DNA from: Theionarchaea archaeon
GTDB lineage: Archaea > Methanobacteriota_B > Thermococci > Methanofastidiosales > SZ-28-30
Assembly (NCBI GenBank): GCA_018992685.1
Contig: JACVGT010000014.1
Location: 67,349 to 131,348 of the forward strand
Length of the DNA: 64,000 bases
Direction: 5' to 3'
Made by a program: the position numbers and the translations under genes. The notes under the pieces are model-generated. The model had not been told where the DNA came from. It searched no databases and saw only the letters and a program-made list of their open reading frames with translations. Shown here piece by piece: positions 31,021 to 64,000 of the stretch. Numbering within the stretch: the stretch's first letter is position 1; the number at the start of each line of letters is the position of its first letter.

Positions 31021-31193
31021 TTCAATACACCTTTTCTTAAGTTATGTAGGTAACTACCTAGTCTTATTTAAAGATAGTGGTAAAGACGTGTTCTCTCATG
31101 GTATCTTTCTTCTTTTGAAAAAGAGAACCTTCATCACTCTTGGTATTGTGCGCATCCTTAAGTAGACTGCTGACGACTTTTCACAGTGATACC

Positions 31194-32006
31194 ATGAACT
31201 CCGTTGGTACAATCATGGAGGAGGCAACAGCCTTCATATACAGCAACGGGACACCCCTTGAGATTGCAAGGCTCGACAGTATTCTCAAGAGAACGTCATC
31301 CACGGTCCTGAGAACTATTGAGGTCCTTCAAAATGACGACGGCGGGTTCCCCTACAATATGGAGTCCGGCAAGATATCCACCCTCAACACCACTGAGTTT
31401 GTGCTGGTGTGGCTTCATGATCTGGCTCTCCTGGATTCAGAAATGGGAAGAAAAGCATTCCGATTTATTCTGTCCATGCAGAGCCCTGATGGTACCTGGA
31501 ACGAAAAGGACGAAATCCTCCCATACAGTCCCCCTCCCTGGATGGTTCCCCACAACGAATATGCCATAGCCTTCACAACTGCCAATTCCGCTTTCTGGCT
31601 GGGAGTCAAGGGGCTGAAGACAGAACCCTTTTTCAGAGCATGTACGTTTCTTACGTCGTCTCAGAACGAATCTGGCAAATTCCCTGGGTTCCTCCACACC
31701 ACCTGGATCAGCGCCTCGGTGTTGGCCTTGGAGAAAGATTGGACGTCTCCTCATGTAGTTAGAGCCATGTCCTACTTGGAGGGACTCTCACTGGAGCAGT
31801 GGGAAGCCTCTCAGATCAGCTGGATGCTGTGGTATTTCTCTCTGGCTGGCATTCCCGCGCACCTCCCTCTTCTCAGGAGTGCATTCACAGAGCTTCTCAC
31901 CCGGCAGAACGAAGACGGGAGCTTCACGGCTGAAGATGGTGATTCCTACTCTGTCAACACCACGCTTGAAGTAGTCAAGGTCATTCTAGCCAACACATCT
32001 CTATGA
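31194..32006 (+). CDS. Alpha-toroid protein of the prenyltransferase/squalene-oxidase repeat superfamily
   Basis: 270 residues with repeated QW-like turns: VLQNDDGGFPYNME, SMQSPDGTWNEKDE, SSQNESGKFPGFLH and RQNEDGSFTAEDGD, each followed by a helix pair. These are the hallmark of alpha/alpha toroids found in terpene cyclases and protein prenyltransferases. No DxDD acid motif is seen, so it is not an obvious cyclase. At about half the usual cyclase length it may be one barrel. ATG 31194 follows CCTTAAGTA. Together with the class I isoprenoid-like protein at 33820 it suggests an isoprenoid-related locus. Function unknown. Confidence 0.7.
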   Translation: MNSVGTIMEEATAFIYSNGTPLEIARLDSILKRTSSTVLRTIEVLQNDDGGFPYNMESGKISTLNTTEFVLVWLHDLALLDSEMGRKAFRFILSMQSPDGTWNEKDEILPYSPPPWMVPHNEYAIAFTTANSAFWLGVKGLKTEPFFRACTFLTSSQNESGKFPGFLHTTWISASVLALEKDWTSPHVVRAMSYLEGLSLEQWEASQISWMLWYFSLAGIPAHLPLLRSAFTELLTRQNEDGSFTAEDGDSYSVNTTLEVVKVILANTSL

Positions 32007-33493: not shown

Positions 33494-33819
33494 ACCATTA
33501 GAATTATGCTATAGTATATAATGTTTGTGCTGCTGCGCCTTATGTACCTAAAGGCTCACCCTACAAGGAGAAGTTCCCTTTTTTTGACAGTAATCTGAGA
33601 TTCAGTTGCCCTCTCGGCGGGCATTGAAAAAGAAAAAGAAGAAAAAGGGGGTTTTCTTCTGCTACCGTTGCAGAGATCTGCAGGTTCTGCTTGAAATCCC
33701 TATCTCCTCCCCTTGGCTGTTAACGTACTGTTCTCATATAGGGAGTACCATCCTGTCTCCCCTGCCCTCTAACATGCCAGTCAGTCATGTTTATATATGT
33801 CAAGGTAGGCGTATCAGCA
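33494..33819. other. Divergent intergenic region
   Basis: Holds the minus-strand TATA box of the PaaK-like gene near 33510-33520, a T7 run at 33578-33584, an A/G-rich stretch at 33627-33652, and the plus-strand TATA box GTTTATATATG at 33789-33799 for the next gene. A 112-codon plus-strand reading beginning in the A/G-rich stretch has unnatural composition and I do not accept it. Confidence 0.45.
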
Positions 33820-34974
33820 ATGGCTCTAGAGGAAAGAGAAACCTTCTCTATGATGGTGCGCATCATATGGATGCTCCTGTCGCACAAACATGCTTCCCTC
33901 AGATTCAGGAGGATATCCCCTCTGGTGAAAAAAGCACTGAATGAGTATGAAGAGAAGATGAATTCCCTGGCAAAGAGTCCTCACTGCTTGGGAAGCACTG
34001 CACTCATGAAGCACGGACTGCTCAAGGAAAGGTACTGGAGAGCAGGGATTCTTATGGCAGCAGCCACGTCTCTTCCTGTCCTGTATGAGACTGTTACTGA
34101 AGAAGAACTGGTTCAGGCGGTATGTGCCAAAGCTTCAGTGAGTACCAGCGCAAAGCTCCTGGACAACCTCAACGATATGGTCCACACATATGCTCAGGCA
34201 GTACATTCCTTATCTGGGTACGAATCTGCTCTTGCAAGAGGGAGCTACCATCCTGATGGCACCTCTGACGTAGCACGAGCTGAATCTTCTGCACACGAGA
34301 TTGCCTCGTGGGTGCACACCATCATGATGACCGTATGTGGGAACCCCCCATGTGCAAGAGACATTGAACTACTCATATCGGGGCAGATTGCTTCAATTCA
34401 GCACAAGAGAGGGGACTATCCCTCCATGCAAACGTATCTTTCCCAGGTATGCGAGCGCAGCATCGGAAATATGTGGATTGATGTTGATCTGACCTTTCTG
34501 CCTCAGGATAAGAGTTCTTCACTGAAAAAAGGAAATGACTATATTTTCAAGTCATATCTGCTGTATGACGATATTCAGGACATTAGAGAGGATATTAGGA
34601 CCAATTCGGTAAATTCAGCACTTATCATGGGAATGGAAAGGGGGTTACTCCGTGGGGAAGAAATCGTCCCCGAGAAGACTGAAGATATTATCCGTAACCT
34701 GGATGAAGCGGGGATTTTCTGGGACATCCTATCTCTTGGAGATCTCATTTTCCTGGAAGGGTTGGAAACTGTATCTCAATGTGGCAGTTCCATCGACAGG
34801 AAAGGATTGGCTGCCAGTCTCGGATTGATTAGGATGTTTAACTTGCGCAGGACACTCAAGAGGGAGAGAAGCATTCCTGTTCTCGGCGAGTTTCTGGCTG
34901 GCCGAAGAAGATTAGTCCAGGTGAGGGAGACCGTCCCTGACCGCATTCAGGATCTGGCAAACTGTGTCGCATAA
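33820..34974 (+). CDS. Class I isoprenoid-synthase-fold protein
   Basis: 384 residues, almost all helical. An aspartate-rich motif LLYDDIQDIREDIRTNSVNS fits the DDxxD metal-diphosphate site of trans-prenyl synthases and class I terpene enzymes. An earlier AKLLDNLNDMVHTYAQAV could be the first, weaker site. Such enzymes ionise prenyl diphosphates with Mg2+. Substrate and product are unknown. ATG 33820 begins MALEERETFSMMVRIIWMLL and lies 25 bases after a TATA box. The two upstream in-frame extensions are not supported. Assignment to the superfamily is fairly good, to any named enzyme not possible. Confidence 0.6.
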   Translation: MALEERETFSMMVRIIWMLLSHKHASLRFRRISPLVKKALNEYEEKMNSLAKSPHCLGSTALMKHGLLKERYWRAGILMAAATSLPVLYETVTEEELVQAVCAKASVSTSAKLLDNLNDMVHTYAQAVHSLSGYESALARGSYHPDGTSDVARAESSAHEIASWVHTIMMTVCGNPPCARDIELLISGQIASIQHKRGDYPSMQTYLSQVCERSIGNMWIDVDLTFLPQDKSSSLKKGNDYIFKSYLLYDDIQDIREDIRTNSVNSALIMGMERGLLRGEEIVPEKTEDIIRNLDEAGIFWDILSLGDLIFLEGLETVSQCGSSIDRKGLAASLGLIRMFNLRRTLKRERSIPVLGEFLAGRRRLVQVRETVPDRIQDLANCVA

Positions 34975-56477: not shown

Positions 56478-56654
56478 AAATCTTGTGGTAAGACCGGATA
56501 TATAAGTCTTGTGCTGTGATGAGATCAACGATCACTTGAGAGATCATACCGTGGAGAACTACAGAGTTTACCAATGCCAATGGACTACCAAAAGGTTTAT
56601 ATTTACAGTCATAAGGTATTTTATGAGAATTAATGTTCTACGAGGAGGGGTGTG

Positions 56655-58793
<2,139 letters not shown>

Positions 58794-59300
58794 ACGGATG
58801 TATACGATTCACCTTAAAAGGTGTTTTGCTAGCATCATTTTTGGCAGGAGGAACCGATCCAACGGAGAGGATGGGTGTGATTAACCCACCAGATTATCCC
58901 GAAGCTAGATTCAACATATGCTGGAACCGGCAGCAAAATGGCCTTCCGAAATTTTCAAGTGAACTTCGATATTTCCACTCTATATGGAAATTTTACAGAA
59001 AAAACATCAATCCTTCGGTAAGATGATTGCAATTCCTTCAACGAAAAAAACAACTGCATGTTGGTACCATAAACCTTTTAAAGGGGACTCAACCAATGTG
59101 AAAGCGGAGGAAAAGGATGAGAGACAAGGTACTGTGTAGAGGACGAGCTAGACAGAATGTGGCTCGGGCAAGAGCCGTCTTTTTATCAGATAGGAATTTG
59201 TCATTGGACAGAAATAACCACTTTAGAGTCTTTTTCAGATATTTCTGCTCATTATTCCTCTATACCTTTGGTACCCCTCTCAGACAAGGGAGGTGTGAAG
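58794..59300. other. Intergenic stretch upstream of the diterpene cyclase locus
   Basis: Contains a TATA-like AAACCTTTTAAAGG at about 59069-59083. After it, GCGGAGGAAAAGG and ATG 59117 open an Arg-rich frame to 59326 that looks unnatural. A second frame with more protein-like sequence (WLGQEPSFYQIGICHWTE) runs in from about 59100 without its own start and joins the gene at 59301. A frameshifted upstream gene is possible. A 51-codon reading at 58871-59026 is not convincing. Confidence 0.4.
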
Positions 59301-59528
59301 ATGAAGATGAAGATGAGTATAGATGAGTTTTTGGATTTTTTTGATCTCGGTGGGACCCAGATGCGAGGAAAAATCCAAAGGGTTTTTCCTGAGGGCGTCC
59401 CAAAGCCGGAATTGGACACTATTTGTGCAGCAGATTCCCTTTTCAGGAGATCTGTAATTGATTTTGGCGGTTTGAGCTCGCATTCCGGAGGTGGGAAATA
59501 TGCAAAACACGGTTTTGCAGTCAACTGA
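59301..59528 (+). CDS. Small protein encoded just upstream of the diterpene cyclase
   Basis: 75 residues from ATG 59301, which has a strong GGGAGGTG site 8 bases upstream. It starts MKMKMSIDEFLDFFDLGGTQ, goes on with RVFPEGVPKPELDTICAADS and ends with a Gly/Ser/His-rich segment. It overlaps the cyclase start by 29 bases, so the two are likely translated together. The frame is open further upstream, so a longer or frameshifted gene is possible. No family recognised. Confidence 0.45.
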   Translation: MKMKMSIDEFLDFFDLGGTQMRGKIQRVFPEGVPKPELDTICAADSLFRRSVIDFGGLSSHSGGGKYAKHGFAVN

Positions 59529-60969
59529 AATTGTGAAACATGACGGAGGAAAAATGAGCAGTTCAGCATATGATACTGCGTGGGTGGCACGGGTCACAGA
59601 CCAACAGGGGACATCAGTATTTCCAGAATGTGTTCAATGGATTCTGGAAAACCAGAAACAGGATGGAAGCTGGGGCAGTCAGATTCTGGATTATCATGAC
59701 AGGATACTTTCTACCTTGAGTGCCATCATAGCTCTCAAAGAGCTAGATGGGATTCGGTACAAGGACCATATCCAGAAAGGAGAAAGCTACATCTGGAGGA
59801 ACATGAGGAAAATGAGGAAGGACAACTGTGTATTCGTCGGAGGAGAGCTCCTCTTGCCTTCACTCATGGAACACGCAGAATCAATAGGGCTGAATCTTCC
59901 ATATTACGTGAAAGTCTATGAGAGGAAGTGCAGGGCAAAACTTGAGAAAATTGACAGATCCTTATGGTATTCGCCCTTAACATCTCTTTCATTCTCGTTT
60001 GAATTTTTGGGAGATGAGGTGGATGTGGAGCGCCTGCCATACATCAGACTGCCCAATGGGTCTGTGGGGAACTCCCCTGCAGCCACTGCTTTCTACCTCA
60101 AACATAGAAAGGATGAGGAGGCTGTCCAGTATCTGAGGAGAATTCTCTGCCTAAGAGGAGATGGCTCAGTCATGGAAGCATTCCCCATTGAAGCATTTGA
60201 ATTGGGATGGGTCATGTACAACCTTATGCTGGCAGGTCTTTATCTTGAGCAATACAATGAAATCTGCACGTATCTGACGAAAAACTTGAAGCCTTCAGGG
60301 ATTGGCATGTCTACAGGATTTCCCGTTCCAGATTTGGACGATACAGCAATACTCCTGAAAGCACTGCACAGAATGCAACACTGTGTAGATTTCAGCATAA
60401 TTGACGAATATGACATGGGGGAGTACTACGCCACGTACACCTTTGAGGTAGGTGCTTCAGTTAGCACTAACATTCACATGTTGGATCTTGTCAAGAGCTG
60501 CCCTCAATTTCCGCGGAGAAATGAGAACATAGATAAGTTGATAGCGTTCATTAAGAAAGAAATGCATTCTCCAGGTTATTGGGCCGATAAGTGGCACATT
60601 TCGCCGTATTATACCACCAGTCATGGAATCATGGCCTTAAGTGGGTTAGACTCAGACCTGGCTGGGAAAGCTGTATCCTGGATTCTGCAATCTCAAAACG
60701 AGAATGGAAAATGGGGAAGAAATGGAGGAACATTGGAGGAAACGGCATTGGCTTTGCAGGCCCTGATGTACTACCATCGCAACGTTGAACCCATTGACAT
60801 GGAAGGAATTTCCAAAGCCATGAAGTTTCTTCATGTCGATGTGTCTTCTCTGACCTCTCTGGATTTACCCGACATGTGGATATGCAAGGTCTTGTACACT
60901 CCCACACGAATTGTTCAATCTTCGATAGCTAGCACGCAATTACTGGGGGGAATAGAGAACTGTGGATAG
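59500..60969 (+). CDS. Class II diterpene cyclase (copalyl-diphosphate-synthase-like)
   Basis: 489 residues, the length of bacterial class II diterpene cyclases. Family landmarks in order: SAYDTAWVARV near residue 22, a QDGSWG turn at 54-59, NSPAATAFYL at 191-200, FPIEAFELGWVMYNL at 228, the catalytic DxDD as PDLDDTA (278-281), STNIHMLDLV, HISPYYTTSHGIMAL, and QNENGKWGRNGGTLEETALA. The DxDD acid protonates the terminal alkene of geranylgeranyl (or farnesyl) diphosphate to start cyclisation, leaving the diphosphate on. No DDxxD class I site is in this chain. ATG 59500 has GGAGGTG six bases upstream. A HAD hydrolase gene follows by 204 bases. Rare in archaea. Confidence 0.9.
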   Translation: MQNTVLQSTEIVKHDGGKMSSSAYDTAWVARVTDQQGTSVFPECVQWILENQKQDGSWGSQILDYHDRILSTLSAIIALKELDGIRYKDHIQKGESYIWRNMRKMRKDNCVFVGGELLLPSLMEHAESIGLNLPYYVKVYERKCRAKLEKIDRSLWYSPLTSLSFSFEFLGDEVDVERLPYIRLPNGSVGNSPAATAFYLKHRKDEEAVQYLRRILCLRGDGSVMEAFPIEAFELGWVMYNLMLAGLYLEQYNEICTYLTKNLKPSGIGMSTGFPVPDLDDTAILLKALHRMQHCVDFSIIDEYDMGEYYATYTFEVGASVSTNIHMLDLVKSCPQFPRRNENIDKLIAFIKKEMHSPGYWADKWHISPYYTTSHGIMALSGLDSDLAGKAVSWILQSQNENGKWGRNGGTLEETALALQALMYYHRNVEPIDMEGISKAMKFLHVDVSSLTSLDLPDMWICKVLYTPTRIVQSSIASTQLLGGIENCG

Positions 60970-61173
60970 CCTCCCGAGATGACGTCTCCCTATAGACACG
61001 ATGGGCCGTGGGGTTGTAGCTGAACAATTGGGAGCGCTTGTTTGAAGAATCCAGAAATGCCAGGTGCACCAGCTGACCGCATCAAATCGACCAGTGACAG
61101 TAACCCTGTTGATTTATATATCTGATAAGCCTTGTACTTTCATCACGATTGGAGATATCAGGAGGACTTTCAA

Positions 61174-61881
61174 GTGTCAATCGAAGCTGTACTCTTTGAT
61201 CTAGACGACACGCTAATCAGAAGATCTATGAAGAAGCCAGAAGACTTACACAGAGTTCTAAATCAGAAAAACATATCAGTTTCTCTGGAAGAGGTAAGAA
61301 GGGCATGTTGCCGACTGGAAAGTGAACTACAGGAAAGTCTGGGATATAAATTGAAGACTCAGCGTGGAAAGGTTCCTCATTCCACACTTTACCACATATG
61401 GAAATCATATTTCTATAAAGCGATCGGAATAGAAGCTCATAAGATGAATGGGAAACACGAAATTGATCTAGGCTGGGCAGATATCTGTGATACCGAAATC
61501 TATCCTGACGTAATTCCTTTTTTGGCAAATCTGAAGTCTCAAGGGATTAGGGTGGGGATTATTTCAAATGCCTATGAAAGGGAAGTGGAACAAATACTAG
61601 AGATCGCGGGATTGGACAGGGAGTTCTTTGATATCATTGTCGGGCCGGATACTGCATCTAGTATTAAGCCGGAGCCGGAAATCTTCCTGCATGTATTGAG
61701 GATTCTTGGGGTCGAACCTGCCCACGCAATCTATGTGGGAAATGATCTAGAGAGAGATTATGTAGGAGCTGAAGAAGTAGGCATGAAATCTTTTTTGATC
61801 TTGAGATCAGAAAATGAGAAAGTAAACGAAAATGTAAGACTCATCAGGAATCTCACGTCTCTGAAAGAGCAGTTGGACTAG
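61174..61881 (+). CDS. HAD-superfamily phosphatase next to the diterpene cyclase
   Basis: 235 residues from GTG 61174, set by GGAGGAC about 8 bases upstream; an upstream TTG start would give a non-family N-terminus. HAD motifs: I, AVLFDLDDTLIRRSM (DxDDT); II, VGIISNAYER; III, SSIKPEPEIFLHVL with catalytic Lys; IV, IYVGNDLERDYVGAEEVGM. The cap is helical and of C1 type. It hydrolyses a phosphate monoester; the substrate is not visible. Fungal and bacterial HAD-like enzymes that remove phosphate from class II cyclase products are known, and the position right after the cyclase gene suggests a similar role. GATTTATATATC at about 61110 could give it a separate promoter. Confidence 0.8.
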   Translation: MSIEAVLFDLDDTLIRRSMKKPEDLHRVLNQKNISVSLEEVRRACCRLESELQESLGYKLKTQRGKVPHSTLYHIWKSYFYKAIGIEAHKMNGKHEIDLGWADICDTEIYPDVIPFLANLKSQGIRVGIISNAYEREVEQILEIAGLDREFFDIIVGPDTASSIKPEPEIFLHVLRILGVEPAHAIYVGNDLERDYVGAEEVGMKSFLILRSENEKVNENVRLIRNLTSLKEQLD

Positions 61882-62833: not shown

Positions 62834-62995
62834 TCACTTCTTTAGGATTATGACATAAGCCCTCCTGCCGATATATTCTCTTGGAGCACCAATCTTTGCG
62901 CTGTTTCCAAACGGAGTTATTTCTTTCTCATATACCATTTCTGCTTCATCGGTGAGCACGATCTTCTCATTGTCAATGATCTCAATTTTCCTCAT
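62834..62995 (-). CDS. DUF2080 transposon-encoded small protein
   Basis: 53 residues: MRKIEIIDNEKIVLTDEAEM, then EKEITPFGNSAKIGAPREYI with GRRAYVIILKK. The ITPFGNSAKIGAPREYIG pattern is that of DUF2080 proteins, which accompany DDE transposases in archaeal insertion sequences. It resembles short AbrB-like antitoxin folds. The ATG lies about 27 bases from the shared TATA box at 63018-63028. Divergent to the transposase gene. Likely a regulator of transposition, by analogy. Confidence 0.78.
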   Translation of the reverse strand: MRKIEIIDNEKIVLTDEAEMVYEKEITPFGNSAKIGAPREYIGRRAYVIILKK

Positions 62996-63017
62996 ATATA
63001 GGATATCCAAGGATATC

Positions 63018-63028
63018 CTTATAAAGGT
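63018..63028. promoter_or_regulatory. Shared symmetric TATA box between DUF2080 and transposase genes
   Basis: CCTTATAAAGG is nearly symmetric. Its centre lies about 27 bases from the DUF2080 start (62995) and 24 bases from the transposase ATG (63047), so one box could drive both leaderless transcripts. Two copies of the palindrome GGATATCC (63001-63008 and 63011-63018) adjoin it and look like an operator. Confidence 0.55.
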
Positions 63029-63046
63029 TTCTCTCATTGTAACTTT

Positions 63047-64000
63047 ATGAGGATCACAAAGAAGGAGGTACAAGACGCGATCAATACGTTAAAAATAGTG
63101 AGAAAGAAGATTTTTGAGGGGAGAAAACCAGACTACTCCCATACAGAGTGGGAACAGAAGAGAAAGAAGGTGAATGAAAAACTGAGAAAGCTCTATGCAT
63201 TCGTTGATGAGGCAGTCAGTACCATTGCCATTACACACTCCCGTGGCAGACCAAGAACTCTTGACCTGGCAAAGAGGACCATACTCTTCCTGTTTACTGT
63301 GCTCATTAACAAGAGCAACAGAGATACTGCTGCATTACTCGAATTTTTCGAGCCATTTTTTGGATTCAAAGTCAACTACAAGTACATAGAAAGACTCTAC
63401 TCTGATGAACAGGTCAAGGCGGCCTTACACAATATCTTCTACCTGCTACTGGTAGCTGAAGGGATATCTGGTAAGTTCGCAGGTGATGGTACGGGATATT
63501 CTCTAACCATTACGAAGCACTACCGGTCCACTCCTCAAAAGAAGGCAAAAGATTACCGGTATGCCTTCAGGTTGATTGACCTGGAGACTGGCATGTACAC
63601 AGGGGTTGGATACTCCACACGATCAGAAATGGATGCGTTCAACAAGGCCATGAGTATGCTCTCTGATTCTGGAATATCAATCACTTCCATTGCTCTAGAC
63701 AAGTACTACAGCTCACGAAAGGTATTAAAGCTCTTTGGTGAAGAAACAGCAGTATACGTCATCCCCAAAAACAATATTTCGAGAATAGGACCAAAATGGG
63801 CGAAAATCTTCAAAACGATCATGGAAAACCCTGTTGAATACCTGGAAAAGTACTTCCAGAGAAACCTGAGTGAAACAGGCTTCTCAGCAGATAAGAGACG
63901 ATTTGGATGGACACTACGCCAGAAACGAGAGGATAGACAGGAAACAGCCATGTTTTCCATTGCCCTTCTGCATAATCTCTTTGCAGTACGAGTGTCAACG
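63047..64000 (+). mobile_element. Insertion sequence: DDE transposase (3' end beyond window)
   Basis: Open for 318 codons from ATG 63047 to the window edge with no stop. The protein begins MRITKKEVQDAINTLKIVRK. A catalytic Asp fits FAGDGTGYSLTITKHY, a second IALDKYYSSRKVLKL, and the Glu lies in NLSETGFSADKRRFGWTLRQ, giving a DDE set. Together with the divergent DUF2080 gene this is a full archaeal insertion-sequence head. The left terminal repeat should lie between about 62800 and 62834, but I cannot fix it without the right end. The exact IS family is not assigned. Confidence 0.82.

Follow-up and report, generated by a model that had tools for sequence, protein, structure and literature searches.

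A Cyclase Gene in an Archaeal Setting

Plants, fungi, and bacteria are known to possess class II diterpene cyclases, and archaea make geranylgeranyl diphosphate (GGPP) for their membrane lipids. A cyclase-like gene in an archaeal genome, lying between a small open reading frame (ORF) and a HAD-superfamily gene, raises the questions of whether it truly belongs to this kind of enzyme, how it came to be there, what it would make of GGPP, and which enzyme would complete the pathway. The reading that we consider likely is that it encodes a working class II cyclase that would convert GGPP to a bicyclic C20 diphosphate other than copalyl diphosphate, to be finished by another enzyme, and that the gene represents an archaeal branch of a mobile family. 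No description of an archaeal class II diterpene cyclase was found in the open-access literature, subscription papers being outside the scope of the search, and a recent survey of bacteria does not mention archaea (PMC11469919). The three genes, whose positions in the window (the whole 64-kb stretch of DNA analyzed) had been given correctly by the initial annotation, are as follows:

59301–59528, + strand: 75-aa ORF with a good Shine-Dalgarno sequence and a 29-nt overlap with the start of the cyclase gene
59500–60969, + strand: class II diterpene cyclase gene (start ATG at 59500, stop at 60969, 489 aa, beta-gamma architecture)
61174–61881, + strand: HAD-superfamily hydrolase gene (best start GTG at 61174, Shine-Dalgarno CAGGAGG, 235 aa, DLDDT motif intact)

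Judged by sequence, motifs, and predicted fold, the 489-residue protein is a beta-gamma class II diterpene cyclase. In alignment A4, the SxYDTAW landmark appears as SAYDTAWVA near the N-terminus and the QxxDGSWG landmark as QKQDGSWG at residues 52–59, while the DxDD catalytic acid motif is present as DLDD at residues 278–281, as the initial annotation had claimed along with other class II landmarks. The middle aspartate (Asp280) is invariant among 86 relatives, and the remaining columns that are invariant across this set (Glu168, Trp365-His366, Glu413-Glu414, and others) are retained as well. Searches with phmmer matched the protein to Mycobacterium tuberculosis Rv3377c (2e-58 to PDB 6vpt, searched against the PDB) and to Arabidopsis copalyl diphosphate synthase (CPS; 8e-42), and the Pfam domain SQHop_cyclase_C was recognized at 2e-15. 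These matches, together with 447 relatives found by tblastn, rule out a chance ORF at 59500–60969. The score of 40.6 bits is far under the NCBIfam equivalog cut-off of 431.1 for squalene-hopene cyclase (TIGR01507).

An AlphaFold model built from an alignment of 12 relatives (pLDDT 86.7, pTM 0.89) has the beta-gamma double alpha-barrel fold without an alpha domain and superimposes on 6vpt across 465 of the 489 residues (Z 44.7, 30% identity), followed by Streptomyces ent-CPS (Z 37.0) and Arabidopsis CPS (Z 35.4). Clearly lower scores were obtained for drimenyl diphosphate synthase (27.6), squalene-hopene cyclase (26.0), and a HAD-fused drimenol synthase (21.7). These values bear on the drimane-type product proposed in the initial annotation, which would make the protein a sesquiterpene cyclase acting on FPP, a proposal favored by the HAD gene next door. 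The HAD-fused drimenol synthases AsDMS and AstC likewise combine class II chemistry with HAD involvement, but those enzymes carry DxDTT and a fused N-terminal HAD domain (HAD-TCbeta), whereas here the two genes are separate and the motif is DxDD; since the fold scores also favor diterpene cyclases, a drimane-type enzyme appears most improbable.

The archaeal identity of the host, for which the initial annotation thought contamination unlikely, is borne out by the surrounding genes. On one side of the cyclase, the contig carries archaeal genes for a Fae-HPS fusion, Sua5, and a Bud32-type kinase. On the other side, the membrane-protein gene next after the HAD gene has relatives within the genus, and the HAD protein shares 40% identity with a second HAD protein of the source genome, a paralogue for which the genus offers a syntenic orthologue at 73% identity. 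Bacterial contamination is thereby ruled out. The end of the window is also the end of the contig (131348), which falls inside an IS5-like transposase gene 3 kb from the cyclase, and the source genome is 91% complete.

Several other features of the window were recorded. A gene for a DUF2080 transposon-encoded protein and that of the IS5-like transposase occupy 62834–64000, about 1 kb past the HAD gene, and at 56652–58308 a triosephosphate isomerase gene is directly followed by that of a 329-aa GAPDH, which looks like a bacterial type and is missing from the same-genus genome. A 288-aa alpha-toroid protein encoded at 31140–32006 gives weak matches to squalene-cyclase and prenyltransferase profiles, all under the Pfam cut-offs.

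Distribution and Phylogeny of the Cyclase

The rarity of such cyclases in archaea, asserted in the initial annotation, holds in the genomes searched. Among 115 species of its own phylum, the cyclase occurs in the source genome only, the one further match in this search being a short one (23% identity) to a toroid domain, and no orthologue is present in the one same-genus genome. A model search of 398 sampled genomes from another archaeal phylum recovered a strong copy in two of them (loci L016 and L130, the latter in genome G293). While a single-sequence scan of genome contigs yielded no relatives, an alignment-based degenerate-pattern scan with tblastn across contigs from ~85,000 species genomes yielded 447, the best of which are 37–39% identical to the cyclase. 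The 80 best of these 447, on which the flank counts below are based, are mostly from Chloroflexota and include two archaeal records, L016 (Thaumarchaeota/Nitrososphaerota, from groundwater) and L022 (Thermoplasmata/Thermoplasmatota). A further locus, L023, labelled as a bacterium, was considered as a possible archaeon and rejected on its bacterial-looking L31 and release-factor genes, which were read by eye.

The phylogeny proposed in the initial annotation as a check was carried out and placed the source cyclase with L016, L022, and L130 (~36–41% identity) in one clade with support of 95/82 in a careful maximum-likelihood tree, from which, as from the other trees, the M. tuberculosis proteins were left out. 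Forcing the source cyclase onto its nearest Chloroflexota relative lowered the likelihood by 27 units and was mildly rejected (p-AU 0.035). A topology uniting the other three archaeal sequences without the source cyclase could not be rejected (p-AU 0.264), which leaves more than one branching order possible within the archaeal clade. These sequences place the cyclase in an archaeal branch within a family found mainly in Chloroflexota. The position of this branch among bacterial, largely Chloroflexota, sequences fits transfer from bacteria and subsequently among archaea; the tree is unrooted, and the direction of transfer is thus inferred.

Partner Genes of Related Cyclases

The genes surrounding related cyclases show which enzymes usually accompany them. 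Partners within ~6 kb of the cyclase were counted by BLAST and jackhmmer in the 80 best of the 447 relatives. A gene of the Rv3378c family (assigned by a nearly full-length phmmer match of 6e-84 to PDB 3wqk) lies near the cyclase at 56 of these 80 loci, adjacent and on the same strand at 42, and a class I terpene synthase gene (assigned by Pfam PF19086) at 11. The two partner types never occur together, and 13 of the 80 loci have neither, with the contig ending close by in several. Adjoining Rv3378c-like and class II cyclase genes are found in many Anaerolineae (Chloroflexota loci L020–L094, e.g., L074:5034-5945), and at ~50 Chloroflexota loci (e.g., L074:7446-9137) a PAS/histidine-kinase gene directly follows the cyclase, often together with a response regulator. 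Others initially looked beyond the mycobacteria for orthologues of Rv3376, Rv3377c, or Rv3378c and reported finding none (PMC11476799). The Anaerolineae cyclases beside Rv3378c-like genes (e.g., L074, L025, and L031) belong to the same family as the source cyclase (32–39% identity); their operons with the Rv3378c-like gene, many of which continue into a sensor kinase and a response regulator, have no counterpart at the source locus.

Both archaeal loci among these 80 also contain an Rv3378c-like gene. At L016, it is separated from the cyclase gene by those of a PEP-utiliser mobile-domain protein and an unassigned 375-aa protein, and L130 has the same order of cyclase, PEP-utiliser mobile domain, and 375-aa protein before its contig ends (compare L016:7423-8933 and L130:1-671, where the 375-aa proteins are 54% identical over 98 aa). 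At L022, the neighbors of the cyclase are an MFS transporter gene and the Rv3378c-like gene. The source locus differs from all of these in having a HAD gene.

Partner enzymes in the source genome were sought by model searches alone. No Rv3378c-like match was found at E values up to 10, with a model that gave matches in 4 of 9 other genomes, and no class I synthase was found at E values up to 1 in a search that had no control; with the assembly 91% complete, neither absence is final. These searches have some bearing on whether the gene could be an inactive remnant of a recent transfer, a reading consistent with the lack of a recognized partner, with its restriction to one species of the phylum, and with a codon score at the low edge of the genes in the window, which suggests that the gene may be a recent and possibly idle arrival. 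Against this, the 489-aa frame is open and preceded by a Shine-Dalgarno sequence, and all catalytic columns are intact, which makes a remnant very unlikely.

Active-Site Residues and the Predicted Product

When plants and bacteria make copalyl diphosphate for hormone pathways, the synthase ends the reaction with a His-Asn dyad (motifs LHS and PNV; PMC11795633, PMC5441855). In fold and DxDD chemistry, the source cyclase resembles the ent-copalyl diphosphate synthases of bacteria (PDB 5bp8) and plants (PDB 3pya). Unlike these enzymes, it lacks the LHS/PNV base dyad, with Phe165 at the position of plant CPS His263 and Glu226 at that of its Asn partner in the phmmer alignment. Because these residues replace the dyad, the product is probably not copalyl diphosphate. 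Exchange of the histidine for Phe or Tyr in Arabidopsis CPS yields kolavenyl diphosphate, and the reverse change in a Salvia kolavenyl synthase (F255H) yields ent-copalyl diphosphate (PMC5441855, PMC11795633). Other enzymes with Phe or Tyr give other products (PMC5441855), so that Phe at the base position does not in itself fix the product.

Among the relatives, the residue at this position tends to vary with the partner gene. Histidine occupies it in all 15 class-I-partnered cyclases (4 of them plasmid-borne) and phenylalanine in 42 of 56 Rv3378c-partnered cyclases, including most of those from Anaerolineae; of the archaeal cyclases, the source enzyme, L016, and L130 have Phe and L022 has Asn. 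The pattern is suggestive of an association between Phe and an Rv3378c-like partner, with only about three changes of partner on the tree, too few for a statistical test. The source cyclase also has Tyr466 at the position of the base Tyr479 in the M. tuberculosis enzyme, and thus combines this tyrosine with a non-His residue at the CPS position in the manner of Rv3377c, although the tyrosine is near-universal in the family (77 of 86 relatives); since it is common to the His-type relatives too, it does not discriminate between product types. Judging from these residues, the product is probably a bicyclic C20 diphosphate that is either rearranged (halimane or clerodane) or hydroxylated, with the choice among these about evenly balanced.

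The most likely course of the reaction is that the DxDD aspartate would protonate the terminal double bond of GGPP, and that the chain would then close to a bicyclic C20 cation and be quenched with the diphosphate retained, so that the product would be either rearranged (halimane/clerodane-type) or hydroxylated (labdane-type). A separate enzyme would remove or transfer the diphosphate, the neighboring HAD protein being the best local candidate, and the cyclase gene itself would move between lineages.

The residues also help to weigh two other proposals for the second step. A CPS-like cyclase could feed a class I diterpene synthase of the same genome that has escaped recognition, as suggested by the class I partners of some relatives and by an unassigned 395-aa protein, encoded at 33787–34974 of the window, that seems to be helical, contains DNLND and DDIQDIREDIRTNSVN, and could be a divergent class I-type isoprenoid enzyme. 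The histidine of every class-I-partnered cyclase, set against the phenylalanine here, and the negative class I search argue against such a pathway. Neither Pfam nor the PDB gave a match to the 395-aa protein, and its single-sequence AlphaFold model is unusable (pLDDT 42), so it was rejected as a class I synthase; a CPS-like pathway is, on balance, unlikely.

Alternatively, the cyclase could make a halimadienyl-type diphosphate for an Rv3378c-like transferase or hydrolase whose gene falls outside the assembled sequence or was lost from this genome. Rv3377c, the halimadienyl (tuberculosinyl) diphosphate synthase of M. tuberculosis, is the best match in both sequence and fold and shares with the source cyclase the beta-gamma architecture, DxDD, Phe at the CPS-His position, the base Tyr, and a nearby HAD gene. 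The frequency of Rv3378c-like neighbors, including those at L016 and L022, the fit of Phe165 and Tyr466, the incompleteness of the genome, and the proximity of the window end to the cyclase all favor this proposal, as does a near relative (locus L017 in genome G118) in which the Rv3378c-like gene is on a separate contig. Unlike Rv3377c, however, the source cyclase has an archaeal host and no Rv3378c-like match in its genome, despite a model that performed elsewhere, and a tuberculosinol-like pathway can be advanced only tentatively.

The HAD Gene as a Candidate Partner

That a HAD-superfamily gene follows the cyclase, as first annotated, was confirmed by its DxDxT motif and by Pfam (Hydrolase, 8.4e-24), with HAD-SF-IA-v1 also above its cut-off. 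It is separated from the cyclase by a gap of 204 bp that contains a possible signal of its own:

61113–61121, + strand: TATA-like TTTATATAT upstream of the HAD gene, read from the sequence

The genus-wide paralogue has DLGET or DLGGT in place of DLDDT, so the source HAD protein may be the catalytically orthodox copy, with a different job. It is a plausible candidate phosphatase with a putative link to the cyclase, and it may yield an alcohol from the cyclase product. There are precedents for such a role, as the HAD-like proteins AstI and AstK strip drimanyl diphosphate in an Aspergillus drimane pathway (PMC5024094), and in M. tuberculosis the HAD gene Rv3376 lies beside the cyclase. Deletion of Rv3376 lowers but does not stop terpene-nucleoside production (PMC11476799), which indicates that the M. 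tuberculosis HAD protein is accessory rather than essential.

The initial annotation combined the cyclase and the adjacent phosphatase into a two-gene pathway to a free bicyclic diterpene alcohol and called for a check of whether the pair is conserved. The pairing is favored by the adjacency of the genes on the same strand, by the intact DLDDT, by these precedents, and, at first sight, by the same-genus genome, which has no cyclase orthologue and no HAD protein above 42% identity to that of the source. The phosphodiesterase and GAPDH neighbors are missing from that genome too, however, and the shared absence was discarded as evidence for a unit. Among the 80 best of the 447 relatives, a HAD gene was found in the flanks of only three (L042:10654-11394, L055:6295-6951, and L087:2704-3321) and beside the cyclase in none, which rules out the HAD gene as a conserved partner. 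At L055, the HAD gene directly follows a weakly matching Rv3378c-like gene. With the 204-bp gap, the separate TATA-like sequence, and 10 HAD matches in genome G000 also speaking against it, the two-gene pathway is possible but doubtful, and the reading preferred here, a cyclase whose non-copalyl product is finished by another enzyme, leaves the HAD protein as one candidate for that step.

Upstream ORFs and Expression Signals

The region preceding the cyclase gene contains the following additional features:

59074–59084, + strand: TATA-like CCTTTTAAAGG, read from the sequence
59117–59326, + strand: 69-aa ORF with GGAGG upstream and a GGAGGAAAAGGATG start, overlapping the 75-aa ORF
59159–59186, + strand: terminator-like hairpin with a T-run, between the TATA-like CCTTTTAAAGG and the 75-aa ORF
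59289–59295, + strand: Shine-Dalgarno sequence GGAGGTG of the 75-aa ORF
59487–59493, + strand: Shine-Dalgarno sequence GGAGGTG of the cyclase gene

The small overlapping gene described in the initial annotation is present; neither Pfam nor NCBIfam gave a match for its product, and the loci of the relatives compared contain no homologue. GGAGGTG has just 7 + strand occurrences in the 64 kb, and to find it immediately ahead of the 75-aa ORF and again of the cyclase supports the view that the two are translated and perhaps coupled, so that the 75-aa ORF is possibly a translationally coupled leader gene, with CCTTTTAAAGG as a possible promoter for the two. The 69-aa ORF may be spurious, codon use having no power to sort real from spurious small ORFs in this genome. 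Together with the hairpin it might form a leader with attenuation, or both might be due to chance; terminator-like hairpins with a T-run occur at a chance rate in the region. An Rfam search around the cyclase locus gave no credible match.

Implications for Archaeal Diterpenoids

The archaeal cyclase is a well-supported addition to a known kind of enzyme, found in an unusual place and as part of a small archaeal clade. A broader proposal, which we put forward with considerable reserve, is that archaea of at least three phyla use a cyclase branch of their own to divert lipid GGPP into rearranged bicyclic diterpenoids of the halimane or clerodane type and differ in the partners employed, two lineages relying on Rv3378c-like transferases (possibly making terpene nucleosides) and the source lineage on a HAD phosphatase (releasing a free alcohol). 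Archaea may make ring-shaped diterpenes that have so far not been looked for, and would be a candidate source of cyclic diterpenoids in anoxic sediments. The existence of a small clade of intact-looking cyclases spanning three phyla makes archaeal diterpenoids directly testable, and a single residue, Phe165, gives a concrete prediction of the product. The usual association of Chloroflexota cyclases with an Rv3378c-like partner may also bear on the origin of the terpene-nucleoside genes of M. tuberculosis.
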